Source: Phormidium pseudopriestleyi FRX01
Lineage (GTDB): Bacteria > Cyanobacteriota > Cyanobacteriia > Cyanobacteriales > Laspinemataceae
Assembly: GCF_017313335.1 (NCBI RefSeq)
Contig: NZ_JAFLQW010000123.1
Location: 1 to 42,057 of the forward strand
Reading direction: 5' to 3'
DNA: 42,057 bases
Shown here: positions 12,580 to 25,815 of the stretch, one piece after another
How positions within the stretch are numbered: the stretch's first letter is position 1
Layout of the letters: each line of letters opens with the position of its first letter
Notes under the pieces: model-generated
What the model saw: the letters and a program-made list of their open reading frames with translations, nothing else
What the model was told of the DNA's origin: nothing
The model's database searches: none
Translations under genes and position numbers: made by a program

Positions 12580-15500
12580 ATGAACCACACCATCAGGGCG
12601 ATCGCATCTCTACTGTTGCTTTCCTATCTAACCGGAATTGCTAAATCCTCCCTCGCGCAACCCATCACCCCCGCCTCCGATGGCACCGGCACAATTGTCA
12701 ATCCAGATGGACCGCAATTTAACATCGAAGGCGGACAACTCTCCAAAGACGGCGCAAATTTATTCCATAGTTTTGAACAATTTGGACTCGATGCCGGACA
12801 AGTAGCTAACTTCCTCTCCAATCCCAACATTCAAAACATTTTAGGACGCATCAATGGGGGAGATGCTTCTATTATTAACGGATTAATTCAACTCACCGGC
12901 GGAAACTCCAACCTTTACTTAATGAACCCTGCCGGGATATTATTTGGACCCAATGCTCAATTAAATGTCCCCGCTGACTTTTTCGCTACAACTGCCACGG
13001 GAATCGGATTTAGTCAAGGCAATTGGTTTAATGCCGTGGGAGATAATCAATGGTCCAATCTAGTTGGAAACCCCTCTCAATTTGCCTTTTCCACCCTCCA
13101 ACCCGGTGCCTTAGTCAACCTCGGAAATTTAACCCTAGAACCGGGTAACAACTTAACCCTATTAGGCGGAACCATTCTCAATACCGGCACCTTATCCGCC
13201 CCTGAAGGCAATATAACCATTGCTACGGTTCCGGGAGAGAGTGTTGTCCGAATTTCTCAAGAGAATCACCTGTTAAGTTTAGAGGTAAATACGGAAATAT
13301 TCGGAACAGCAATGCATGAATCGCAATCCTTGCCTGAATTGCTCACAGGTTCCGGTGCGACTCATGCCAATCAGGTAACCGTTAATGCCGATGGTAGCGT
13401 GCAGTTATCCGGTTCAGGAAGTCGCATTGATACGCAAACCGGAGATAATATTGCTTCTGGAAACATTGCTGCAACAGAGGGGCAAATTGCAGTCCTAGGA
13501 AATCGCATTGCCGTGATTGATGCGGATATCAATACATCAGGAAACAATGGCGGTGGAACCATCCTCATCGGTGGCGATATGCGCGGCAAAGGAACCGTGC
13601 CCAATGCCTTACAAACCTTTGTCAGCGAGGATTCTACTATTGCTGCCGATGCCACTGAATTGGGCAATGGTGGACGAGTGATTATATTTGCAGAAGAAAC
13701 CGCCCAGATTTACGGAGACATCAGCGCCCGTGGTGGTATCTTAGGTGGAAATGGTGGGTTTATAGAAACCAGTGGATTGCAATTTATAGAAGTCACCACC
13801 GTTCCCAATGCTCGCCCTAGTTGTACGAATGTTCCCACCTGCGGAATCGGTGGAGAATGGTTAATCGACCCGAATAATATCGAGATTGTAGCTGGGGCGG
13901 GAAATAGTAATATTAACAATACAAATCCCTTTATGACGACCGGGGATGCAGCACAAATAGGGGTTGAACTGATTGTAGATGCGCTCAGGGGGGGGAATCA
14001 ATCCGTAACGATTGAAACCGGAAATGGGGGGATACAAGAGGGAGATATTACCGTTAGTGCGCCGATTGATTATAACGGAATTGGGGAAAATAACACCCTA
14101 ACTTTGAACGCACACAACAATATTATTATCAATGCCAATATTATTGACGGTGTTCCCGGTGGGGATTTTTTAAATCTGGTCTTGAATGCCGATATTGACA
14201 ATGCCAATGGGGGAATGCTTTCCCTCTTCAATGCCACGATTAATACCGGAGGAGGCAACTTCACGGCAACGGGAAATGGAAATTTAGGCAATGCGGAAGG
14301 CGTTAGGATTACTAACAGTATCATCAACGCCGGAGGGGGGAACATCCAGCTTACTGGAACCGGATTTAGTGGAATCACAGGCAGTGATTACGCGGGTATT
14401 CTGATTAATCAAGGGAGTCGGATAGAAACTAACAAAAATGGGACGATTACTTTAAATGGAACAGGCGGTGCCGGGATTAACTGGAATACGGGGATATATA
14501 GTGAAAATACCACGATATCAGGCAATGCCGATATTACTCTGACTGGAACTGGCGGTAACGGTGTAGATTTCAATCGGGGAATCTTTTTGGATGGGGTGAT
14601 AATCCAATCAGAAACCGGCAATATTCGAGTGATGGGTACAGGGGGTTATAGCACGGGAGAATTCAACCCGGGTATCAATATTCAAAAGAATAGCCGCCTG
14701 GAATCGGGGGGTGGAACGATTATTTTAGAGGGATTCGGTGTTAATGGGACTGACTGGACTGCCGGGATATTAATTGGTCAGTCTATCTTCTCTGCAACTG
14801 GAGATATTCGCTTCACGGGAACAGCTAAAGGGAGCGGAATCAATAATCGAGGGGTGAGTGTCATAAATCACACTCACCTTGAATCAACAACCGGAGCAAT
14901 TGTTATCGATGGCATCGGGGGAACTGAGGGGTATTTTAATACAGGAGTAGCTATTCGAGATCGGGTTTCAGTTTCCGCTTATGAAGATATCCGATTGACG
15001 GGGTTAAGCAAAGGCACCGAAAATGTCAATGATGGAATTAGCTTAATGAATGGGAGTTCTTTGCATTCCAGAATGGGGTCGATTATCTTAGAAGGCACCG
15101 GCGCAAACGGGACGGTGGATAATTACGGCATTTATGTTGATAATAATGTTTCTATCGCTTCTAATTCCGGGGATATTCGCCTAAACGGTGTCGGGGGAAA
15201 TGGGACGGAATTTGCCAATATCGGCATAATTTTTTTAGGGGTTAATCAGATAGAATCAACAGCGGGAAACATTACCCTAGAAGGGACTGGGGGAACTGGA
15301 ACTGACCAAAATTATGGGATATCGATGGAGAGTTCAAACATTGCATCAGGGACTGGAAATATTCAAATCCGGGGAACTGGCGGTGATGCGACGGGAGGAA
15401 TGAATCAAGGAGTGAGTCTAGTCAATGGTAGTAACATCCAGTCCCAAGCTGGAGCGATCGCCATCACAGGAACCGGCGGGACTGGCACGGATTCTAACAT

Positions 15501-18500
15501 CGGAATTCTGATGGAAAATAGCACGGTTTCTGGGAATGGAACTATCTCACTCAATGGCACTGGACAGGGGACTGGTGAAGGTAATCTGGGAATTGAGGTT
15601 CAGAATAACAGTACCATCCAATCCACTGGAAGCGGACATATTCTGCTGGAAGGAATCGGCGTTAATGGTGCAGAAGGAATCGGATTTAGCAGCAGCTTTG
15701 TTAATCCGAATCAAACCGGAAAAGGCGAGGTTATTTTTCGAGGCAGTAATGTTAGTTTTCAGGAAGAGAGTCGGATTTCTAGTAATACTAACATCATCTT
15801 AGAACCGATCGCCCCGGGACAGGCGATCGCCATTCATGATGAAAGCGGGGAATACAGCCTCACAATGCCAGAATTGCTGATGTTAGACATCCCTAATGGG
15901 ACCCTAACAGTGGGTTCAGAGACAGTCGGGGATATTTATGTAGGTTCTTTAGGAGAAATGGACCTCAGCAGTGCTAATTATGCGCTCACCTTCAAAACTG
16001 GGAGTCAGATTTATCTCACCAATAACATCATCACCAATAATCAAAATATCACCCTAGACGGAGCAGTTAATTTGCTCAATAATATTACCTTACGCACGGG
16101 TTCGGGTCATCTCATTTTTGGAGGGACGATAGATGGAAATTACACCCTAAACCTGGATGCCGGAATCGGTAATATCATCTTAAATGAACCCGTGGGCAGT
16201 CAAATCCCCTTGAACACTCTGGCGATCGCCAATGCTAATGATGTCACAAATCAGGCAATCACATCAGGCCATTTACTTCAATTAGCTGGCACAGGTCAGA
16301 CTACATTTAATGGTCCAATCACCACCAATGGGCCAGATGGTATCATCTTAACTGGCAACCGATTTATGTTTTTAAATAGCGCGACAACCACAGGAAGTGG
16401 TTCGTTAAGCATTGCCAATCGTGATAATTTAGAAATTGCCAATATTTTAAATTTAGAGGGAGCATTTCAGCAGACTGGAACCGGGGAGGTCACCCTTTCT
16501 AGCACCATTAATACCAACAACAGTTCTATCAGTTTTAATGCTCCGGTCATCTTAACGGGAGAGGCAATTTTAAACCCAGGAACGGGCAGTCTGGCATTTG
16601 GGTCACGCTTGGAGATGGGCAATAACCCTTTAACGTTAACCGCTGGACAAATTGATTTTAATGGGCCGGTTATAGGAACGAATACCCTCACCTTGCAACC
16701 GGCAAATCGTACCCAAAATATCACCCTAGGAAATCTCTCCAATACTGGAAATAGCTTAGATTTAACCAGCAATGATTTAGCCCAAATTCAAAATGGATTT
16801 ACCGGGATTACTATCGGGCGTCCTGACTACTCTGGGGAAATTTCTATAGTCAATCCTATCACATTTTTGGATCCAGTAACCCTAGAGGCCGGGTCAGGAT
16901 TTATTTCCCTCAATAGCAAGATTACCGGGTTAGATAATGCAGCGGTTTCTCTGAATGCCGCTACGGTTTACCTCAACTCCGATATTCTGACCAATCAGAA
17001 CGATATTGCCCTGAGTGGAAATATTATTCTAGGGGAAAATGTCACCCTCAGTACCGATATCGGAGGTGGCAATCTTAATATGATTGGCACGATTGATGGC
17101 AACCCCAACTTAACCCTAGACTCAGGAACGGGTAACATCATTCTGAATGAGGCCGTGGGGAGTCAAACCGCATTAGGAAATTTAACGATTATCAATGCGA
17201 ATGATGTCACCACTGAGGCAATCACTGCCGCGAGTCTGACTCAATCCGCAGGGACGGGAACGACAACATTTAATGGAGAAATTACCACAACGGGGGCAAA
17301 TGGGATTAACCTAACCGCTAATACTATTCTCTTTAACAGTCCCGTGACGACAACAGGAAATAGTCCCGTCACCCTGGCGAATACCAACCCCTTAGAAATT
17401 ACGACTCCCTTTACCTTAGACGGTGGATTCCAGCAAACGGGTACGGGAACAGTCACGCTTTCCAGTGAAATTATAACCAACAATCATGATATCGGTTTTA
17501 CGGCCCCAGTTACCCTAAATCCAGGGGCAAGTTTAAATCCGGGAATAGGGGGAATTGCTTTTGGTTCGAGTCTGGATGCGGGGAACAATCCCCTGATTTT
17601 AAGGGCGGGAGAAATCGATTTTAATGGTCCAGTTACCGGCAGTAGTACCCTGAATTTAGAACCGGCAACCCTGACTCAAACTATCACCCTGGGAAATGCT
17701 ACGGATGCTGGGGATAGCTTAGATTTGACCCAAAATCATTTAGCTCAAATTCAGGATGGGTTTACGTCAATTACGATTGGACGCCGGGATTCAACGGGAG
17801 GAATTGTTATTGTTAATCCTCTGAGTTTTACGGATCCGGTAATTTTGCAAGGGGGTTCGGGAGCGATTTCGGTGGATGGGATGATTACGGGTTCAGATAA
17901 TGCAGCAATTTCCCTGAATGCCGCTACAATTTACCTCAACTCTGATGTCGTAACGACCCAGAATGATATTACTTTCACGGGGAATCTAATTCTCGGCAAC
18001 GATATCACCCTCACCACGGACAATGATGGTGGGAATATTAAGATTGTGGGTAATATTGATGGCAATGCGGGCGCGAGTGCTACCTCACCGGGTTTGACTT
18101 TGAATGCCGGAACGGGGGTGATTGAAGTGCGGGGAAATATTGGAGAAATTTCCCCTTTAAATCGGTTAACGGTGACAACGGAACAGACCATTTTGGGAGG
18201 AAATGTCAGCACGAATGGAGGGGATATCACCTTTAACAGCGCGATCGCCCTCGGGGAAAATACCCAAATTACCACAGGTGAGGGTTCCGGCAATATTCTC
18301 TTCCAGAGTCTCATTGACAGCGAAACCAATTTACCTCAAAATCTCACCCTCAGTGCGGGGGTGGGAAATATCACCTTTAATCGTGCAGTCGGCAGTCGGC
18401 AACCGTTAGGGAATCTAAACATTCTGAATGCCGGAAATATAACCGCACTGGATACCATTGCCGCAGGGAGTTTCCGCGCACTGAGTACCGGAACTATCAC

Positions 18501-21210
18501 CCTTCAGGGGAACTTAACCACCACGACGGCACAAGGAGTTGAATTAATCAGCGAAAATGCTCTGACCGTTGCTGATATTATCACCAATGGAGAGCAACTC
18601 ACTCTAGAAAGTCAGTCGGGAAATGTCCAAACTGGGAATTTAGATGCCTCTTCTGCCACAACCGCAGGTAATATTACAGTCACCAGTACCCAAGGTGAAA
18701 TCATCACCGGCAATCTCACTGCCTCCGGGGTCAACCAAGGGGGAAATATTACCGTGATGGCGGAGATTGCCATTACTGCCGGTGCGATCGACTCCAGCGC
18801 TACCATTGGAGATGCGGGGAATGTGTTTCTTGATCCGATTGGGGATATCCAAGTCTCCTGGATTAACTCACAAGGGGGAACCAATGGCAGAGGCGGTAAC
18901 ATCTTTATCGAAACCACCGGAGGATTGTTCCGCGCCACGGATTCCTTTGCCAGTGCGTATTCTCCGACGGGTTTTGCCAGTATTTCCTCGGCAGGGGGGA
19001 CTGGTGGCGGGAGTATCACTTTAAATCATGCGGGAGGAGATGATATTGACCCGATTGAAGGGTTTGAAATTGGCAATCCCCTGTTTAACGGCACTCGGGA
19101 TGTGATTACCACTGGCACATCTACTCTCAATATTGGGGAAATCTTCCCTCGTTCTATTACCCAGGGAAATATTACTGTTGCCACGGATGATGGCGTTGAT
19201 CCGATACCGGAACCGGAACCCTTACTCGCGCCAGAAGCAGAACCGACACTACTACCGGCAGCAGAACTTCCGGCAGAACCCTTACCCGCGCCAGAAACCG
19301 AACTCCCTCCAGAAGCGGAACTTCCTCCAACAGAGGAACCTTTAACCGCGCCAGAAGCGGAACTTCCTCCAGCAGCAGTACCTGCATCGGCATCTCCAGA
19401 TTTCATTCCCCCGGGGATAAGTCCTCTAGGGGAACCTTTGTCCGCACTGGCACCAGAATCTGTACCCCAGGAAGGCAGTGAACCTGAACTGCTTTCAACC
19501 GGGGAACCCCCATCAGAACCAGCAGCAATACCGAGTATAACTCCACCGGAAATCATCCCATCCACCCAGGGAAATGGCACTCCAGTACAACCTGTACCGA
19601 CCCAAATACCAAATCTGAATCCAGCAGCAGAGATGACGCCAGAATCGTTGCTGACGGTTTCTCCTTCACGAAATCTGCCGTTGTTCCCTTCACGGTTAGA
19701 ACCGGAACCGGCAGTGAGTGCCTCTATCCCCTCGGCGATCGCCGTTGAAACTGAATCCAGCACCTCGGTGGACAGTCAATCAGACGCGACAGGAAAACCC
19801 TCTGGTTTACCCTTAGAATCGTCTCACAGTTCTGAACCGATTACAGCAGGGTCGTCGATAGAACTTGAGTTAGACGTGGAAGTGACGACTTTGGAAGAAG
19901 CGTTATCTCGGGAGTATATGGACTATTTTCAAGACTCGACTGCGGTGGATATCCAATCCCTCAATGAAGTCCGACAAGTGCTGCGGCAAACCGAGGAGGT
20001 GACAGGAATCAAAACCGCTGTGGTGTATATCGTGTTTGGACGAACGGAGTTGTCTGAAAATGCTGCTTTAATTTGTCCCACTGGCGATCGCCATGAGGAG
20101 TGGCAGCGTACCCGAGAAGAGGAATTAGGATGGCCTTGCGATCGCCATCCCGATGACCCGGTAGAATTATTAGTGGTAACCGGACCTCATCAACCTCTAC
20201 GGATTCAAATTCCCGAGGCCAATCGTGCACAGGTTGAGAAATTGACCTTGGAAATGCGTGGGGAAATTACCAATTTTAAAATGATCCACACTCACCGCTA
20301 TCTCCAGTCATCTCAACAGCTTCATCGTTTGTTGATTGAACCCATTGAACCCACCCTGAAACAGCGAGGCATCCAAAATCTAGCCTTTATTCCGGATGCT
20401 GGAGTGCGATCGCTTCCCTTTGCGGCACTCCATGATGGCGAAACCTTTTTGATTGAACGGTACAGTCTGGCCGTGATGCCTAGTTTTAGTCTCACCCAAC
20501 CTGTCTATGCTAACTTGAAAACCGAGAAAGTTTTGGCAATGGGCGCTTCTAAATTTCTGACTTTAGATCCTCTCCCTGCGGTTCCAGTTGAGTTAGAGAC
20601 TATTATTTGTCAGACGCAGCTTGGGTCCGAGTCTTGTTGGCCTGGTGAACGATTTTTGAATGAAGAATTTACCCTTGATATCTTAAAGCAGCGGGGAAAT
20701 CAAGGAGATTTTCGCATCATTCATTTGGCAACTCATGCCGATTTTCAACCGGGAGACCCGGGGGAATCTTATATTAAATTATGGAATCACCGCTTACCTT
20801 TTTCCGAAATGAAAGCATTACAATGGAGTAATCCAGAAGTGGAATTATTAGTGTTGAGTGCCTGCCGGACTGCCATTGGAAATGAACAGGCGGAGTTAGG
20901 ATTTGCTGGGTTAGCATTACAGTCTGGGGTGAAATCTGCGATCGCCTCGTTGTGGTATGTCAGTGATGAAGCGACATTAGGATTAATGAAGGAATTGTAC
21001 CAAGCGTTGCGATCGGCACCCATTCGTTCGGAAGGATTGCGCCGCGCACAACTGCAACTCTTGCGCGGGGAGGTTCGATTTGAGAATGGACAATTGGTGG
21101 GTTCTGATGGGGCGATCGTCCTACCACCGGAACTCTCCCACTTGCAAAGCATAGACCTTTCCCATCCTTATTATTGGTCCGGATTTATAACCATTGGTAC
21201 TCCTTGGTAA
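12580..21210 (+). CDS. Two-partner-secretion (filamentous hemagglutinin-like) exoprotein with C-terminal CHAT protease domain, 2876 aa
   Basis: A signal peptide (about residues 1-27, ending SSLAQ) leads into the TPS/haemagglutination domain. Its diagnostic motif LMNPAGILFGPNAQLNV lies near residue 115. Residues about 590-1030 are beta-helix coils of roughly 36 residues (GTGG...GI...NS.I.S..G.I.L.G). Residues 1144-1783 hold two tandem repeats of about 320 residues, and a third start at 1784 diverges. A Pro/Glu/Ala-rich linker spans about 2207-2430. The C-terminus is a CHAT caspase-like domain with the dyad His2719 (HLATHADF) and Cys2762 (LSACRTAIG), ending HPYYWSGFITIGTPW, typical of CHAT. TPS proteins cross the outer membrane through a TpsB/FhaC partner, and none is in this window. 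I infer a surface fibre carrying or releasing a protease. It follows a consensus promoter; no ribosome site is evident. Confidence 0.92.
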   Translation: MNHTIRAIASLLLLSYLTGIAKSSLAQPITPASDGTGTIVNPDGPQFNIEGGQLSKDGANLFHSFEQFGLDAGQVANFLSNPNIQNILGRINGGDASIINGLIQLTGGNSNLYLMNPAGILFGPNAQLNVPADFFATTATGIGFSQGNWFNAVGDNQWSNLVGNPSQFAFSTLQPGALVNLGNLTLEPGNNLTLLGGTILNTGTLSAPEGNITIATVPGESVVRISQENHLLSLEVNTEIFGTAMHESQSLPELLTGSGATHANQVTVNADGSVQLSGSGSRIDTQTGDNIASGNIAATEGQIAVLGNRIAVIDADINTSGNNGGGTILIGGDMRGKGTVPNALQTFVSEDSTIAADATELGNGGRVIIFAEETAQIYGDISARGGILGGNGGFIETSGLQFIEVTTVPNARPSCTNVPTCGIGGEWLIDPNNIEIVAGAGNSNINNTNPFMTTGDAAQIGVELIVDALRGGNQSVTIETGNGGIQEGDITVSAPIDYNGIGENNTLTLNAHNNIIINANIIDGVPGGDFLNLVLNADIDNANGGMLSLFNATINTGGGNFTATGNGNLGNAEGVRITNSIINAGGGNIQLTGTGFSGITGSDYAGILINQGSRIETNKNGTITLNGTGGAGINWNTGIYSENTTISGNADITLTGTGGNGVDFNRGIFLDGVIIQSETGNIRVMGTGGYSTGEFNPGINIQKNSRLESGGGTIILEGFGVNGTDWTAGILIGQSIFSATGDIRFTGTAKGSGINNRGVSVINHTHLESTTGAIVIDGIGGTEGYFNTGVAIRDRVSVSAYEDIRLTGLSKGTENVNDGISLMNGSSLHSRMGSIILEGTGANGTVDNYGIYVDNNVSIASNSGDIRLNGVGGNGTEFANIGIIFLGVNQIESTAGNITLEGTGGTGTDQNYGISMESSNIASGTGNIQIRGTGGDATGGMNQGVSLVNGSNIQSQAGAIAITGTGGTGTDSNIGILMENSTVSGNGTISLNGTGQGTGEGNLGIEVQNNSTIQSTGSGHILLEGIGVNGAEGIGFSSSFVNPNQTGKGEVIFRGSNVSFQEESRISSNTNIILEPIAPGQAIAIHDESGEYSLTMPELLMLDIPNGTLTVGSETVGDIYVGSLGEMDLSSANYALTFKTGSQIYLTNNIITNNQNITLDGAVNLLNNITLRTGSGHLIFGGTIDGNYTLNLDAGIGNIILNEPVGSQIPLNTLAIANANDVTNQAITSGHLLQLAGTGQTTFNGPITTNGPDGIILTGNRFMFLNSATTTGSGSLSIANRDNLEIANILNLEGAFQQTGTGEVTLSSTINTNNSSISFNAPVILTGEAILNPGTGSLAFGSRLEMGNNPLTLTAGQIDFNGPVIGTNTLTLQPANRTQNITLGNLSNTGNSLDLTSNDLAQIQNGFTGITIGRPDYSGEISIVNPITFLDPVTLEAGSGFISLNSKITGLDNAAVSLNAATVYLNSDILTNQNDIALSGNIILGENVTLSTDIGGGNLNMIGTIDGNPNLTLDSGTGNIILNEAVGSQTALGNLTIINANDVTTEAITAASLTQSAGTGTTTFNGEITTTGANGINLTANTILFNSPVTTTGNSPVTLANTNPLEITTPFTLDGGFQQTGTGTVTLSSEIITNNHDIGFTAPVTLNPGASLNPGIGGIAFGSSLDAGNNPLILRAGEIDFNGPVTGSSTLNLEPATLTQTITLGNATDAGDSLDLTQNHLAQIQDGFTSITIGRRDSTGGIVIVNPLSFTDPVILQGGSGAISVDGMITGSDNAAISLNAATIYLNSDVVTTQNDITFTGNLILGNDITLTTDNDGGNIKIVGNIDGNAGASATSPGLTLNAGTGVIEVRGNIGEISPLNRLTVTTEQTILGGNVSTNGGDITFNSAIALGENTQITTGEGSGNILFQSLIDSETNLPQNLTLSAGVGNITFNRAVGSRQPLGNLNILNAGNITALDTIAAGSFRALSTGTITLQGNLTTTTAQGVELISENALTVADIITNGEQLTLESQSGNVQTGNLDASSATTAGNITVTSTQGEIITGNLTASGVNQGGNITVMAEIAITAGAIDSSATIGDAGNVFLDPIGDIQVSWINSQGGTNGRGGNIFIETTGGLFRATDSFASAYSPTGFASISSAGGTGGGSITLNHAGGDDIDPIEGFEIGNPLFNGTRDVITTGTSTLNIGEIFPRSITQGNITVATDDGVDPIPEPEPLLAPEAEPTLLPAAELPAEPLPAPETELPPEAELPPTEEPLTAPEAELPPAAVPASASPDFIPPGISPLGEPLSALAPESVPQEGSEPELLSTGEPPSEPAAIPSITPPEIIPSTQGNGTPVQPVPTQIPNLNPAAEMTPESLLTVSPSRNLPLFPSRLEPEPAVSASIPSAIAVETESSTSVDSQSDATGKPSGLPLESSHSSEPITAGSSIELELDVEVTTLEEALSREYMDYFQDSTAVDIQSLNEVRQVLRQTEEVTGIKTAVVYIVFGRTELSENAALICPTGDRHEEWQRTREEELGWPCDRHPDDPVELLVVTGPHQPLRIQIPEANRAQVEKLTLEMRGEITNFKMIHTHRYLQSSQQLHRLLIEPIEPTLKQRGIQNLAFIPDAGVRSLPFAALHDGETFLIERYSLAVMPSFSLTQPVYANLKTEKVLAMGASKFLTLDPLPAVPVELETIICQTQLGSESCWPGERFLNEEFTLDILKQRGNQGDFRIIHLATHADFQPGDPGESYIKLWNHRLPFSEMKALQWSNPEVELLVLSACRTAIGNEQAELGFAGLALQSGVKSAIASLWYVSDEATLGLMKELYQALRSAPIRSEGLRRAQLQLLRGEVRFENGQLVGSDGAIVLPPELSHLQSIDLSHPYYWSGFITIGTPW
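16009..17928 (+). repeat. Two tandem repeats of about 960 bp (about 320 residues) inside the exoprotein
   Basis: Copy starts align at 16009, 16966 and 17929 (periods 957 and 963 bp). Shared landmarks include IYLTN/VYLNSD, GNIILNE.VGSQ, QQTGTG.VTLSS, IDFNGPV.G, LDLT...LAQIQ.GFT.ITIGR. The third start, at 17929, loses similarity after about 60 residues. The duplication extended the rod-like shaft by one repeat length. Confidence 0.8.
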
Positions 21211-21275: not shown

Positions 21276-21989
21276 TTAATTGCGATCGCCCACTAAGGCT
21301 GAAATAATCGCTTCAAAGAGTTCTGTGGGTTGGGTGGTACAGCCGTTTGCACCCAGTCGTTTCGCTTCGCTTTGGTGTTCCGTGAGGATGATGCGATCGT
21401 AGAGGATATAAGGCATATAATAGCCCGATCGCCGGATTTCTTCGAGTAGGGTGTAACCGGCGCGATCGTCTGGGGGACGTTCGATATCCGAGATGATTGC
21501 ATGATAGGGACTGGCTTTTATTTGGGCGATCGCCTCTTCCGTATTCCGAGAAAAACTACATTGAACCCCTAAGACTTCTAAGGCTTTTTGCTCATAACTA
21601 TTTTCTTCTAAGCAATCATTTACCCATAGCACCTTTTTGGTCAGCAATTCCTCAGAAATTTTAGGGTCAGAAACGCGGGCGATCGCATGAATAATTTTTC
21701 GATATTCATCATTTACATCCGTATCTTCCCCATTATCTGAGGACTCTTGACTGGATTTTTTCTGTCCTGAAGCTGCGCCTAGCATTGCCGCTGACTCCAG
21801 TTGTCGCTTAACACTGGCCTCCACTCCCGATGGCCCTGCTTTTAAGCTAAATTCGCTAACATTATTGAGGAGTTTCTTTAAAGAGTCTCCAAAGTAAACC
21901 ACGAAAAAAACGGCAAAAGCAGGCCAGATTACGGCCTGGATTAGGGAGATGATTCCATTGAAAATTTCGTTGATTCTATCAGAATTCAT
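21276..21989 (-). CDS. Membrane-anchored receiver-like domain protein, 237 aa
   Basis: One transmembrane helix spans about residues 13-33 (IISLIQAVIWPAFAVFFVVYFG). An amphipathic linker and a Ser/Glu/Asp-rich spacer (about 75-92) follow. Residues about 118-235 are a CheY-like receiver fold: VLWVND (Asp125), the candidate phospho-acceptor Asp168 in IISDIERPPD, and GANGCTTQPTELF at the end. The canonical acidic pair is Asn-Asp instead of Asp-Asp, and the conserved Lys of the K-P motif is Gln. Phosphorylation is therefore doubtful. There is no output domain, so the receiver itself is probably an interaction module held at the membrane. It is the last gene of the HEPN-ATPase operon, 26 bp after the ATPase stop. 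AGGGAG at 22007-22012 is too distant to be a good ribosome site, suggesting translational coupling. It converges on the CHAT exoprotein gene (65-bp gap). Confidence 0.8.
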   Translation of the reverse strand: MNSDRINEIFNGIISLIQAVIWPAFAVFFVVYFGDSLKKLLNNVSEFSLKAGPSGVEASVKRQLESAAMLGAASGQKKSSQESSDNGEDTDVNDEYRKIIHAIARVSDPKISEELLTKKVLWVNDCLEENSYEQKALEVLGVQCSFSRNTEEAIAQIKASPYHAIISDIERPPDDRAGYTLLEEIRRSGYYMPYILYDRIILTEHQSEAKRLGANGCTTQPTELFEAIISALVGDRN

Positions 21990-22015
21990 GTTTTGTACAA
22001 GCTCAACTCCCTGAA

Positions 22016-24694
22016 CTATCGTTGCCCCTTTCGGACCATTTTTAATCCATATAGATATAATTCTGCCACAGCATAGACCCCGGGGGGAGGGTCTTGAGGA
22101 CGAGTCCGTTTTGTGAAAATACCCGCATCAATCATATCACGAATCCGGCTTGTTAATTGGTCATTATTTAACTTCCAAAGCTCCCCTAGGCGAGTGGCAT
22201 CAATCGGAGAACGCTCCTCTGCTAGTTGATTTAAAGACTCCGCTAGTTCCGGATACTCATTCCGAACTTCATCCACTCGTTGTTCCGACACATAAGGAAA
22301 CGCATCAATCAGTGCTTTCGGACGCACAATCACCTCCGCACTGTATTCCGTTGAAATCTCTTTCTCTTTTTTAACGGCCTCCTCTAGGAGTAAAATGAGG
22401 CTACGGGGGAAGCGATTCTCTTGACTATCCTCAATTCGGGTGCGAATCCAATTATAGGTATAGGCTTTTTTCCCCTTTCCCATTCGTTCCCCCCAAAGTG
22501 GATATAAGCTTTTTCGTAATTGCTCTAGCTCAATCCTATTCAATCGTTCTACTGTTACCCCAAATTGATTCCCTAACCAATCTCGAAAAGCCTCTGAACT
22601 TTTTAAAATTTGACGCAATACCAGTCGCCATAGGTCCGCTTCATCCCAGCGTAATGGTAGAGTTTTTGCTGTTGTGTAATGTCCTTTGTTTGTAAAATTA
22701 AGTTGTTCCCAAATATCTTCCCGTAAAAATATTTTAGGGACAATTTTACCGAGGGCAGATCCATCCTCCAACCACCAAGCCAGCAGCGCATTTAGTGCTT
22801 GTCTGCGACGATTATAATCAGCTTCTGCATGACCAAATCCCACATCAAGTTCATCATAGAGGAGCCATACCCGTTGATGATGCTCTTGCAACCAGCGATT
22901 GATAGCCCTTAATTGATCCCCCGCTTTTGATGCAGCTTGTGGAGATTTAGCACGCTGTACTAACCAGGAGACTATGCTCTCATGGGATGGGTTCTGTTCA
23001 GCACTTAAAGTTCCTAATTCTTTATCAAAATCCGGAAGAGAACGGAACTCGGGTTTAGCATGGCACAGTTGTAATAAAGCGTAGTTAAGCCAAAAGTTTT
23101 GCCAGCTATTCTCCCCGACTTGGTGTTCATAACTTCTGATATCTATGCTTCCTAAAATAGGTCCTTCTAATCGTTGTTCTCCATGTCCGGGAATAAAACA
23201 AACATCCCGGAGATCAACATCGGATTCAGCGAGTTGTTTGGCTTCATCTGGCTGCTCTACAAAAAATCTAAATAATAAACTCTTTCCGCTTCCTTTAGCC
23301 CCCCGAATTAACCAAGTTTTTTGATTAAGAAAATTGGGAAAATCTTCGGTCTTTTGAAAAATATTGGGAATCTCACTAGCTTCAATGTCTTGTGCTCTAG
23401 GCGCTTGAAATTGAAGTTGATTTAAAATTGCTTTCCGATCAAGACTGGGTTGGATCGGTTTTTGGGTAATATCCGGTAAGCTGGCATCGATCTTCTCAGC
23501 AATAGGCAAATAAGCCGTGATTAGGCTATCAGGAACATCATTAACAAGACTTGATAAAGTGATCAGACTGGGGTTGTAATACACTTTATCGTAAAGCTCA
23601 CTCACGGTTGTTCCTTGGGGGATGCCCCAATTTTCTTCAATCCAGTTTTCAACTCGGTCAATCGAGATTTGAAGCTGATCCGGTGCAACGCTAGGCATCG
23701 GAGTGAGCAAAAATCGGAGATCCGGCTTGCCTCGGTACTGACGCTGTTTAAGAATCCCTCGGACAACCCACTTTAACCCTTCAAAGCTTTGATCTGTGGG
23801 GGAAAAGCAGAGGATGGCAGTATCTGCTAAATCAAACAAGGCGATCGCACTGGTGTCATTAAAACCCGGACGCGCATCAATCAGAATAATATCCGGATTA
23901 ATTTTAGCTTTAATATCTTCAATTAACTGACTAACGGGATTAACTTCCCTTTTATAAAACAGTTGTAACGTTCCCCGATCCAAATCAGCCAATCGATGAA
24001 TGTAATTTTCGTCATACTCTCCAGCCGGAACTAAAAATAATTCACCTCGACTGCGTAAATTAATCCCAGCGATACAATTTTCCAGACTCGGAATATCTTG
24101 ATCGGGAGTTAAAAAGCGTTGGTGTAGATAATCCACCACACCATACTGTTCTGAATTAGATCGATCCATGTCCGGTTTAAATAAAATAGAAATTCCGGGC
24201 GCTTCTAGATCTAAATCGACCATCACGACTCGACGATTGCGGCGGGCTAAAATACCGCTCACTAACCCTAAAGCGGTGGAACGACCAACACCACCCTTGA
24301 AGGAGTAAAATGTGACCACTAATGGACGAGGAGAAATCTCCTCGTCCAACAAGTCAGCTACTTGATCGGGTTCGGGTGCCATTAACAGATCGGACCAAAG
24401 TGGTAAAGGAAGCTGAATAGATTCTGGACCCTGTTCATCCGCCTCTTCTGGAGTCAACAACTGATAGCCTGAAACGGGGTATTGACCTAAATTGAAATCA
24501 ATCGGTGCTAGTAAGTCATCAATTTTATTTTCTCGTTCTTCTAACGACAGCCTTTCAAAGCAACGAGTCACAATATAGATTTTTATCCACCCCAATGATG
24601 TCCGTTTTACCCGGACATTGGCTTGCTCATCTTCTAGGTAAAGTTCTTTTTCCAACTGAGTTATGATTTCTTGAGGAACATTTGTAAAATCCAC
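22016..24694 (-). CDS. KGGVGR-variant ParA/MinD-like ATPase fused to a second P-loop domain and winged-helix-like tail, 892 aa
   Basis: Residues 1-90 are a small alpha/beta module, possibly BolA-like (WIKIYIVTRCFERLSLEERENK). Residues about 125-410 form a ParA/MinD-type ATPase with deviant Walker A KGGVGRST (133-140), DLDLEAPG, and Walker-B-like ILIDARPGFND. The usual GK lysine is Arg138, the hallmark of the KGGVGR subgroup. A second NTPase starts near 455 with a normal Walker A, GAKGSGKS (465-472), and a likely Walker B at VWLLYDELDVGFG. The last 110 residues look like a winged helix (LGELWKLNNDQLTSRIRDMIDAGIF). Start is GTG 24694, preceded by AAGGAG at 8 bases spacing that lies inside the last codons of the HEPN gene, so translation is coupled. 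Role is unknown; proteins of this kind occur in predicted conflict or defence operons. Confidence 0.87.
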   Translation of the reverse strand: MDFTNVPQEIITQLEKELYLEDEQANVRVKRTSLGWIKIYIVTRCFERLSLEERENKIDDLLAPIDFNLGQYPVSGYQLLTPEEADEQGPESIQLPLPLWSDLLMAPEPDQVADLLDEEISPRPLVVTFYSFKGGVGRSTALGLVSGILARRNRRVVMVDLDLEAPGISILFKPDMDRSNSEQYGVVDYLHQRFLTPDQDIPSLENCIAGINLRSRGELFLVPAGEYDENYIHRLADLDRGTLQLFYKREVNPVSQLIEDIKAKINPDIILIDARPGFNDTSAIALFDLADTAILCFSPTDQSFEGLKWVVRGILKQRQYRGKPDLRFLLTPMPSVAPDQLQISIDRVENWIEENWGIPQGTTVSELYDKVYYNPSLITLSSLVNDVPDSLITAYLPIAEKIDASLPDITQKPIQPSLDRKAILNQLQFQAPRAQDIEASEIPNIFQKTEDFPNFLNQKTWLIRGAKGSGKSLLFRFFVEQPDEAKQLAESDVDLRDVCFIPGHGEQRLEGPILGSIDIRSYEHQVGENSWQNFWLNYALLQLCHAKPEFRSLPDFDKELGTLSAEQNPSHESIVSWLVQRAKSPQAASKAGDQLRAINRWLQEHHQRVWLLYDELDVGFGHAEADYNRRRQALNALLAWWLEDGSALGKIVPKIFLREDIWEQLNFTNKGHYTTAKTLPLRWDEADLWRLVLRQILKSSEAFRDWLGNQFGVTVERLNRIELEQLRKSLYPLWGERMGKGKKAYTYNWIRTRIEDSQENRFPRSLILLLEEAVKKEKEISTEYSAEVIVRPKALIDAFPYVSEQRVDEVRNEYPELAESLNQLAEERSPIDATRLGELWKLNNDQLTSRIRDMIDAGIFTKRTRPQDPPPGVYAVAELYLYGLKMVRKGQR

Positions 24695-24697
24695 TAA

Positions 24698-25153
24698 TTA
24701 TTCTCCTTGTTGACTTAAAATTAATTGGTATATTTTTTTAACCGCCTCTATAAAATTTTTACATTCCTGTTCATCCCCTAATTTATTTGAGTAGCGCAAA
24801 TCATCACTACGCCATAAGGAGCAAACCGTAGTCCAGGCAGTTTTATAACCTTTGGTTCTATCCAGCTCAATAGCTTTTTCAATCGACTCAACATTTCCTA
24901 ATAATTGGGTCAGATTGTGCAAATTTGAACCCTGGAGTCCATCTTTAAAGGGTTTAGTTTCCTTTAAATTCGATTTTTCTTCTTTATAACAAATTAATGA
25001 TTTCAAGGAACATTCGATAGCATAACCGCCTAAATACATAGAACCCGTCCACCGATGACTATCAAACAATGATTCCGCATCTTCTAGCCGACGACGGGAA
25101 GCACCTAATTGTAAACGCCTATCATAGCTATCTGGAGCTTTTGCTTTTGCCAA
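24698..25153 (-). CDS. HEPN domain protein, 151 aa
   Basis: A single helical HEPN-type domain covers most of the protein. The signature helix is TGSMYLGGYAIECSLKSLICY (about residues 36-56), the Y-A-x-E-C-x-L-K pattern of this group, and LRYSNKLGD lies near 118. Many HEPN proteins are RNases with an R-x4-6-H motif. I find no such motif here, so a binding or sensor role is more likely than cleavage. The start is TTG at 25153, the only possible one because a stop codon lies two codons upstream. It has a good AGAGG site 7-8 bases before it. An overlapping ATG at 25158 is in another frame. It is the first gene of the three-gene operon, ending 3 bp before the ATPase GTG. Confidence 0.82.
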   Translation of the reverse strand: MAKAKAPDSYDRRLQLGASRRRLEDAESLFDSHRWTGSMYLGGYAIECSLKSLICYKEEKSNLKETKPFKDGLQGSNLHNLTQLLGNVESIEKAIELDRTKGYKTAWTTVCSLWRSDDLRYSNKLGDEQECKNFIEAVKKIYQLILSQQGE

Positions 25154-25517
25154 GCATTATACCTCTCTTGTTAGTTTTTTTACTAGACTAGACTAGCATA
25201 TTGTAGGATTTTTTGCAACTTACTCTCTAATTTTTAAAATGGTTAAATTAAATTAAATTAGCCATTCAGCGGAAATCTCTACTGGAGCAGAGGTAACTGT
25301 CACGAACATTCCTTTTTTTTCTGATTTCTAAACAACATAAAATCGCTTCTAAAATATGTCTCCTTGCTTTTTCAACACTCTTGAATTGATTGAGCTATAT
25401 CGCAATACCTAGGGAATTTAGCCTAAAAAATTAAACCTCCTCCCAACCCACCAAATTTTTGCTCTAAAAATTCTGCAAAAACTTTATATTTTTGGGGTTT
25501 TTGAAAATATTATTACC
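25154..25517. other. AT-rich, probably decayed intergenic region
   Basis: This is the most AT-rich stretch of the window, with homopolymer runs and short direct repeats (ACTAGACTAGACTAG, 25183-25197; TTAAATTAAATTAAATTAG near 25246). It must contain the promoter of the HEPN operon, but no consensus pair is evident. A minus-strand frame at about 25265-25380 (SVEKARRHILEAILCCLEI) faintly resembles the tail of a HicB antitoxin and may be another gene remnant; I do not call it. Confidence 0.4.
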
Positions 25518-25815
25518 CGGCCACACTGTGTTAGAATCATCAGTTCCAAGGCAGACTCAAAGACAAGGCGAATGGGAATCTGCTGGACCTTGGAACGCAA
25601 CTCGATGACAGAATCATAGTCAAAAATTAGACTGGCAAAAATACATCGGCGTCTTGGAGTGCCGTTGCTACCTCGTCCGGTTTTGCAGTGAGGTCTCTGT
25701 CACTAAAAACCCGAATATCCAACTCAGGACAGCGCGAAATTGCCACTTGTGCGGCCTGCCGGTACAAGTCGGCGTTAAAGGATTCAAATCCCGCAATTAA
25801 AACAATCCGTTTCAT
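25518..25815 (-). pseudogene. bchH: 5' remnant of a bchH/cobN-type chelatase large subunit gene, frameshifted and truncated
   Basis: From ATG 25815 the frame reads MKRIVLIAGFESFNADLYRQ and continues to ALQDADVF, the usual N-terminus of the magnesium/cobalt chelatase H-subunit family (DUF3479 region, normally over 1,200 residues). After about 59 codons it goes out of frame at a T-run (near 25632) and stops at 25627. Adding one T restores ASLIFDYDSVIELRSKVQQI and then IRLVFESALELMILTQ in the next frame. Similarity ends near 25518, and what follows is AT-rich debris. A one-base deletion plus loss of more than 90% of the gene makes this a clear relic. An intact copy or the main chlH presumably exists elsewhere. 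Confidence 0.85.

Follow-up and report, generated by a model that had tools for sequence, protein, structure and literature searches.

A window of 42,057 nucleotides from Phormidium pseudopriestleyi FRX01 (contig NZ_JAFLQW010000123.1, positions 1 to 42,057) contains a two-gene module in which a small HEPN gene directly precedes the gene for a large ATPase with two P-loops. The two genes are inherited together, the module is present in a patchy fashion among cyanobacteria, and in the window it stands in place of the greater part of a chlH-like gene. We favor, with some reservation, the view that this is a horizontally acquired, fused cyanobacterial variant of the phage-defense candidate PDC-M28, in which an ATP-driven switch controls a HEPN effector. 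The original prediction had joined a third gene, for a membrane-anchored receiver-like protein, to the other two. We are very confident in the identity of the module and in leaving the receiver gene out of it.

The HEPN-ATPase module as a form of PDC-M28

PDC-M28 is an unnamed entry of PADLOC-DB 2.0.0 (2023), in which PDC genes stand for "phage defence candidate" (as given in PMC11514479). The entry consists of a HEPN protein (A), a KGGVGR ATPase (B) and a Sll1717-like ATPase (C). All three parts are matched at the locus, in the same order A-B-C, and the system that had been thought undescribed was therefore already in the database by its parts; the assignment to PDC-M28A, B and C rests on profile matches. 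The locus differs from the database entry in that B and C form one 892-residue chain, whereas separate profiles imply separate genes. It also has a BolA-like N terminus, and its scores are far below those of plasmid-borne trios. Because the fusion retains all parts, we treat it as a variant of PDC-M28. Cyanobacteria hold both forms: B and C are fused at most loci and separate at L050-L052 and L075 (L numbers designate individual loci). For the unfused trios on plasmids of Enterobacter, Sphaerotilus and Thiodictyon, the best profile match of each protein is strong: 2e-38 to 6e-126 for A, 8e-135 to 3e-143 for B and 3e-165 to 1e-173 for C. The profiles matched nine of ten proteins of the first plasmid set, the exception being a Pantoea HEPN protein, and all ten of a further set (a Streptomyces trio and seven HEPN genes of other loci). 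A search of the open-access literature found no paper on PDC-M28 or KGGVGR. The unnamed entry thus becomes a defined module with clear boundaries, comprising two genes here and not three.

The HEPN gene proposed in the original prediction is well founded. Its product scores 26.7 bits against Pfam PF05168 (cut-off 22), matches PDC-M28A at 1.2e-9 over residues 17-145, and has a predicted structure with a pLDDT of 91.8. Four of the top seven Foldseek matches to this model are labelled HEPN (E 0.02-0.23, none below 0.001), and the others, 1ufb and two chains of 2q00, we take to be HEPN proteins as well. A profile of the HEPN family gave only chance matches among PDB sequences. Within the family, E47, K51, H79 and Y121 are found in all 46 homologues and R120 in 45. 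The toxins of HEPN/MNT systems carry the motif RX4HXY, which is absent from the HEPN protein here.

The predicted KGGVGR double-P-loop ATPase is likewise borne out, both halves of the protein scoring above the cut-offs of their families. The first half matches the KGGVGR-motif ATPase family NF047398 with 181.7 bits (cut-off 90; 1.8e-53) and the second half the Sll1717 family NF047389 with 131.1 bits (cut-off 75; 6.2e-38); PDC-M28B is matched at 1.5e-39 over residues 122-371 and PDC-M28C at 3e-26 over residues 454-850. With regard to STAND NTPases with a winged helix, a Pfam scan added only a weak NACHT match (E 0.075) and an ORC-CDC6-like match under the cut-off. The residues G134-G135-V136-G137-R138 are kept in 43 of 43 homologues, and in all of them arginine takes the place of the GK[ST] lysine of the first P-loop, with the switch and Walker B stretches retained. 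The second P-loop is canonical, with an intact GxKGxGK[ST], and K471 and D614 are present in all 43. A fold search starting from a low-confidence model matched ParA, Soj and MinD (best 1.2e-7), and the matches to the whole ATPase were mainly to the ParA-like domain.

Cyanobacterial ATPases of this kind start with what profile comparisons identify as a BolA-like domain, a feature that is new. A profile of the first ~99 residues, built from 24 homologues, gave 16 matches among PDB sequences up to E 10; nine of these are labelled BolA, three fall under E 0.01, and the best (4e-5) is a BolA-like protein. Six further matches are presumably BolA-family proteins and 8fg6 presumably is not. Alignment of the domain to 20 cyanobacterial BolA proteins with hhalign gave a probability of 79.5 over 53 columns, compared with control values of 0.3 (N-terminal domain versus HEPN) and 0.1 (HEPN versus BolA). 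A Pfam scan of the single ATPase protein at E 1 did not report BolA. In BolA proteins, His residues bind an Fe-S cluster. These residues were not found in the profile of the ATPase family, which has RE where BolA chains have RH, and the HAL stretch of BolA is replaced (for example by FLSLYT, GYELLT or WLDLLT). No relevant paper joining BolA with HEPN was found in the open-access literature.

The association of the two genes is close and general. A HEPN gene lies directly upstream of the ATPase gene at 69 of 72 loci; the gap has a median of -4 bases and is no more than 30 bases at 64 of the 69. Counted were loci with the B region and upstream DNA, allowing profile matches with E up to 0.01 and gaps of -160 to 600. 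The three misses are L100, where a short HEPN-like match lies inside the ATPase open reading frame, L108, which is a fragment, and L163, where our script placed the start too early; since the annotated upstream gene at L163 matches PDC-M28A (2.9e-35), the count is better given as 70 of 72. From 75 loci entered, L045 and L106 were dropped (no open reading frame with both the profile match and the first P-loop), as was L053 (short upstream DNA), and six of the 72 duplicate a counted place or genome (L087, L094, L074, L099, L101, and L090 with L089). The count also leaves out nine of the 22 distinct plasmid loci viewed, which do not carry A-B-C; none of the nine has a HEPN match, six hold only a C-like ATPase, and three (L077, L156, L160) have a KGGVGR or KGGSGR ATPase with a different partner. 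Because of this exclusion, the ratio of 69 of 72 does not extend to KGGVGR or Sll1717 ATPases in general. Distances among HEPN proteins follow those among the ATPases, with a matrix correlation of 0.974 over 38 pairs that none of 5000 shuffles reached; the correlation is 0.78 within the close clade (20 pairs) and 0.96 among the rest (18 pairs). These comparisons show that HEPN and double ATPase form a real co-inherited unit and support the view of a dedicated system.

The presence of the unit is sporadic. Any match to the ATPase was found in 64 of 386 cyanobacterial genomes, and a full-length match with at least 59% identity in nine, including the window's own; 23 further places in the 386 genomes have 31-35% identity over most of the protein, one of them with a stop. 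Among genome contigs, 23 loci were found, of which 22 are cyanobacterial and one is from Lachnospiraceae. The window genome alone, among the eight genomes of its genus, has a close homologue. Broken copies occur at L102, L104, L106 and L108, where the gene is split by other open reading frames or reduced to fragments, which fits an expendable gene. A distant (32%) ATPase copy with its own HEPN gene lies on another contig of one genome of the same genus (G387; L203).

The chlH-like gene and the receiver gene

The HEPN-ATPase module occupies the place of a resident gene. The decayed bchH of the original prediction exists: residues 1-106 of a ChlH-like protein, ~73% identical, are encoded in two frames next to the module. 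All seven relatives in the genus have, at this site, the order Uma2, intact chlH-like gene, receiver gene, with no module; a relative's 1240-residue protein matches PF02514. Homology to the relatives by blastn ends at 25525 in all seven, inside the 5' part of chlH, and resumes at 21988-21994, at the receiver ATG (21989). We therefore conclude that the module replaced most of the chlH-like gene, that is, all but its first ~97 codons, and this is found in the window only. The decayed gene, which had been regarded as part of a merely accessory neighborhood, is what the module replaced. Replaced and original segments are near-equal in length (~3530 bases in six of seven relatives, as in the window). 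Masking by N as the cause of this was ruled out, and we take the agreement as chance. Across several genera, a chlH-like gene is also the nearest upstream same-strand neighbor of the module, at L060, L089, L090, L091, L102, L103 and L108; identity of its product to the L091 protein is 77-98% there and 73% for the window remnant. The arrangement in the window would be explained if the module had inserted downstream of chlH and the 3' part of chlH had then been lost. The replacement offers a natural example of how an arriving module can come to form a false "operon" together with a gene resident at the site.

That resident gene encodes the receiver-like protein. Near its N terminus the product carries a single hydrophobic segment that includes a Trp-Pro (WP) pair, recognized by eye, and this part of the predicted membrane receiver stands; the receiver domain is weak, with a match to Response_reg (3e-5, 24.6 bits) under the cut-off of 30.2. 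Canonical receivers carry an acceptor Asp, a Thr/Ser and a Lys. The protein keeps D168, with LYD and TTQP standing in the Thr/Ser and Lys stretches, and appears from its sequence to lack the canonical Thr/Ser and Lys. Neighborhoods anchored on the ATPase, the check that had been suggested, kept the HEPN partner; a WP-type receiver was found at none of 72 other module loci. Downstream DNA extends for 1 kb or more at 66 of the 72 (L036, L042, L088, L100, L159 and L203 have less; at L159 the C gene crosses the start of the sequence record). Excluded from the WP-type count are generic receiver proteins of 215-246 residues without a WP segment at the ten groEL-linked loci described below and a further receiver ~2 kb downstream at L072 (E 5e-4). 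The receiver gene is present in all eight genomes of the genus, 84-88% identical in the seven relatives. Of the 385 other genomes sampled from the phylum, only two hold a relative of it at E 1e-8, and none were found in viral contigs. Of the proposed three-gene system the HEPN-ATPase unit is thus upheld and the receiver is not a member: the supposed trio of sensor, switch and membrane output reduces to HEPN plus ATPase. The receiver gene may now be co-transcribed with the module, and we consider this a local accident unless shown otherwise. A distant relative of the receiver in E. coli (L086, 10001-10771) lies between yfgI and guaA in 26 of 5426 genomes, accompanied by an AAA ATPase and an integrase remnant.

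Context in other genomes and possible function

The contexts of PDC-M28 on plasmids connect the family to phage defense. A-B-C or A-BC is carried by 13 of the 22 plasmid loci, and in three of the 13 the unfused trio lies within a BREX-2 operon, in two different positions, an arrangement that is also new. The order is pglW-trio-pglX on the Streptomyces plasmid, pglX-trio-DUF6079-pglZ on the Sphaerotilus plasmid, and pglX, small genes, trio, "phage resistance protein", pglZ on the Thiodictyon plasmid. In each of these trios PADLOC matched every part, A, B and C. These insertions tie the PDC-M28 family to phage defense and suggest a possible added effector in BREX-2. In contrast, no BREX component was found among the 15 window proteins outside the locus (Pfam, E 1e-5). 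The main text of a BREX survey (PMC12839542) contains none of the whole words ParA, MinD, BolA or SIMIBI. A close copy of the module on a Nostoc plasmid adjoins hsdR. DNA of the Enterobacter trio had no match in E. coli genomes.

From gene content and context, we think it likely that the module takes part in conflict with mobile elements. The HEPN protein is probably the effector, and we can sketch how it might be controlled. In the resting state, the large ATPase would bind the HEPN protein and keep it off. The BolA/KH-like N-terminal domain, together with the C-terminal part of the ATPase, might sense invader nucleic acid or a nucleic-acid complex, and the KGGVGR (ParA-like) and Sll1717 domains would then change in a nucleotide-dependent way that frees or activates HEPN. 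Activated HEPN could cut or block RNA, and growth would stop (abortive infection). Because the Rx4-6H motif is missing, we are less sure that HEPN cleaves RNA than that it binds RNA. We offer this mechanism as a whole tentatively, and it may well need revision. A broader idea, which we regard as speculative and rather doubtful, is that PDC-M28 is a general plug-in immune module in which a nucleic-acid-sensing ATP switch (in cyanobacteria, a BolA/KH-fold sensor on an arginine-P-loop ParA-like domain) controls a HEPN protein acting through a site other than Rx4-6H (E47/K51/H79/R120/Y121); the module would stand alone in cyanobacteria and form a BREX-2 cassette in actinobacteria and proteobacteria. 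Concrete features of interest are the BolA-like domain, the arginine that is invariant in the first P-loop, and the lack of the usual RNase motif in the HEPN domain.

Several observations weigh against the view of an ATP-switched HEPN defense module. The HEPN protein seems to have no canonical RNase motif: a conserved Rx4-6H was not found in the family, the best aligned pair occurring in 15 of 46 sequences, with an Rx4-6H-type string anywhere in the sequence in 24 of the 46. The predicted model of the ATPase is poor (pLDDT 69.9, pTM 0.39), and no BolA-like domain was recovered with a profile built from 16 PDC-M28B proteins that are more distant and for the most part canonical. KGGVGR or KGGSGR ATPases without HEPN, partnered by MqsA-like or helix-turn-helix proteins, occur on rhizobial and Massilia plasmids (L077, L156, L160); other modules using a KGGVGR-type ATPase exist. 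Many cyanobacterial copies adjoin housekeeping genes: in a distant clade the module is downstream of groEL at ten loci (L037, L038, L062-L066, L069, L071, L072), and at four (L047-L049, L073) a class I tRNA ligase gene precedes it. The enrichment near known defense genes that would have supported a system was not apparent, with no clear excess at 19 cyanobacterial copies over 19 controls: 149 PADLOC families were matched among 116 proteins at module loci and 138 among 137 at controls. This comparison, of 20 loci with 20 same-genome control stretches less one pair (4 and 8 proteins), is a weak test, since it counts families and not proteins matched and since PADLOC models also match common helicases and methylases. 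ATPase homologues were not found in viral contigs, in a search reaching close relatives only, and the Enterobacter B protein, the single B protein queried, had no match in phage records. Two further proposals found no support: a viral or phage origin of the module, which had no match in either of these limited searches, and a BolA-like domain in canonical PDC-M28B, for which the best match was a SUI1 homologue (E 0.24).

An alternative role would be that of a toxin-antitoxin or addiction module, with HEPN as toxin and the ATPase as antitoxin, stabilizing plasmids or islands and not sensing phage. We consider this unlikely. There are precedents: HEPN/MNT systems also pair a small HEPN protein with a nucleotide-using partner (as outlined in PMC7641770 and PMC11586414), and a dyad of HEPN (MAE_18760 family) and ParA/Soj, proposed as a toxin-antitoxin system in 2013 (PMC3710099, section 14), likewise places a HEPN gene beside a ParA-like ATPase gene as effector and regulator. 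Several of the 13 plasmid loci with A-B-C or A-BC, moreover, lie beside integrases or recombinases. However, the partner here is a double ATPase and not a nucleotidyltransferase, and it is far larger than an antitoxin requires, with two NTPase domains and a sensor-like N terminus. In the proposed dyad the ATPase is taken to be an upstream antitoxin, whereas here HEPN comes first; the account of the dyad in PMC3710099 mentions no second P-loop ATPase and describes the MAE_18760 HEPN as fused to other domains, which sets it apart by description. The trios inside three BREX-2 operons also argue against addiction.

It is quite unlikely, in our judgment, that the module is a cyanobacterial stress or housekeeping regulator (one tied to tetrapyrrole or chaperone genes, for instance) and not a defense system. 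The lack of clear defense-gene enrichment is consistent with such a role, as are the recurrent neighbors, which include the chlH-like gene (seven loci and the window remnant), another chlH (two loci), groEL and tRNA ligase. Yet the neighbors vary between clades, presence is patchy even inside one genus, several copies are broken, and in other phyla the module is inserted into BREX-2. The remaining alternative, that HEPN, ATPase and membrane receiver act jointly, is very improbable. The shared strand and the short gap to the receiver gene favor it, kinase-less receivers occur in other conflict systems (PMC8195603), and section 15 of PMC3710099 describes a WP transmembrane domain common to HEPN and receiver proteins, which the third gene resembles in its single hydrophobic WP segment and C-terminal receiver-like domain. 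It is a separate resident gene, however, found in seven of seven relatives that have the chlH-like gene instead of the module, and the three-gene system was rejected. We continue to favor the two-gene HEPN-ATPase module of PDC-M28 type.

Layout of the locus and neighboring genes

The three genes of the locus are open reading frames on the minus strand, as originally predicted, and were checked against the stretch 21276-25153 (Table 1). The predicted spacing is correct, with 3 bases between HEPN and ATPase and 26 between ATPase and receiver, as is the placement of the ATPase ribosome site in the end of the HEPN coding region: an AAGGAG preceding the ATPase GTG lies within the final codons of the HEPN gene. 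A scan for promoters and terminators gave counts inside the range given by shuffles.

Table 1. Coordinates of the module and adjoining features in the window
Feature	Position	Strand	Remarks
HEPN gene	24698-25153	minus	151 aa, TTG start
Fused double-P-loop ATPase gene (PDC-M28B + PDC-M28C)	22016-24694	minus	892 aa, GTG start
Putative BolA-like N-terminal domain of ATPase, residues ~1-90	24425-24694	minus	without BolA His
KGGVGR ParA/MinD-like domain of ATPase, residues 124-313	23756-24325	minus	NF047398
Sll1717-family P-loop ATPase region, residues 432-862	22109-23401	minus	NF047389
Membrane-anchored receiver-like gene	21276-21989	minus	237 aa, ATG start; genus resident
Strain-specific segment	21995-25524		no blastn homology to same site in 7/7 genus relatives
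Frame-shifted 5' remnant of chlH/bchH-like gene	25490-25815	minus	gene intact (1240 aa) in 7/7 relatives

The Uma2 and CHAT neighbors were correctly named, both being matched by Pfam. The receiver gene adjoins an exoprotein gene at 12580-21210, whose 2876-residue product has TPS secretion and CHAT domains; stretches homologous to it by blastn lie beside the receiver gene in several relatives, in open reading frames of differing length. At 1-1872, ~20 kb from the module, an MmeI-like restriction-modification protein enters from the left end of the window; it has methylase, target-recognition and C-terminal domains.

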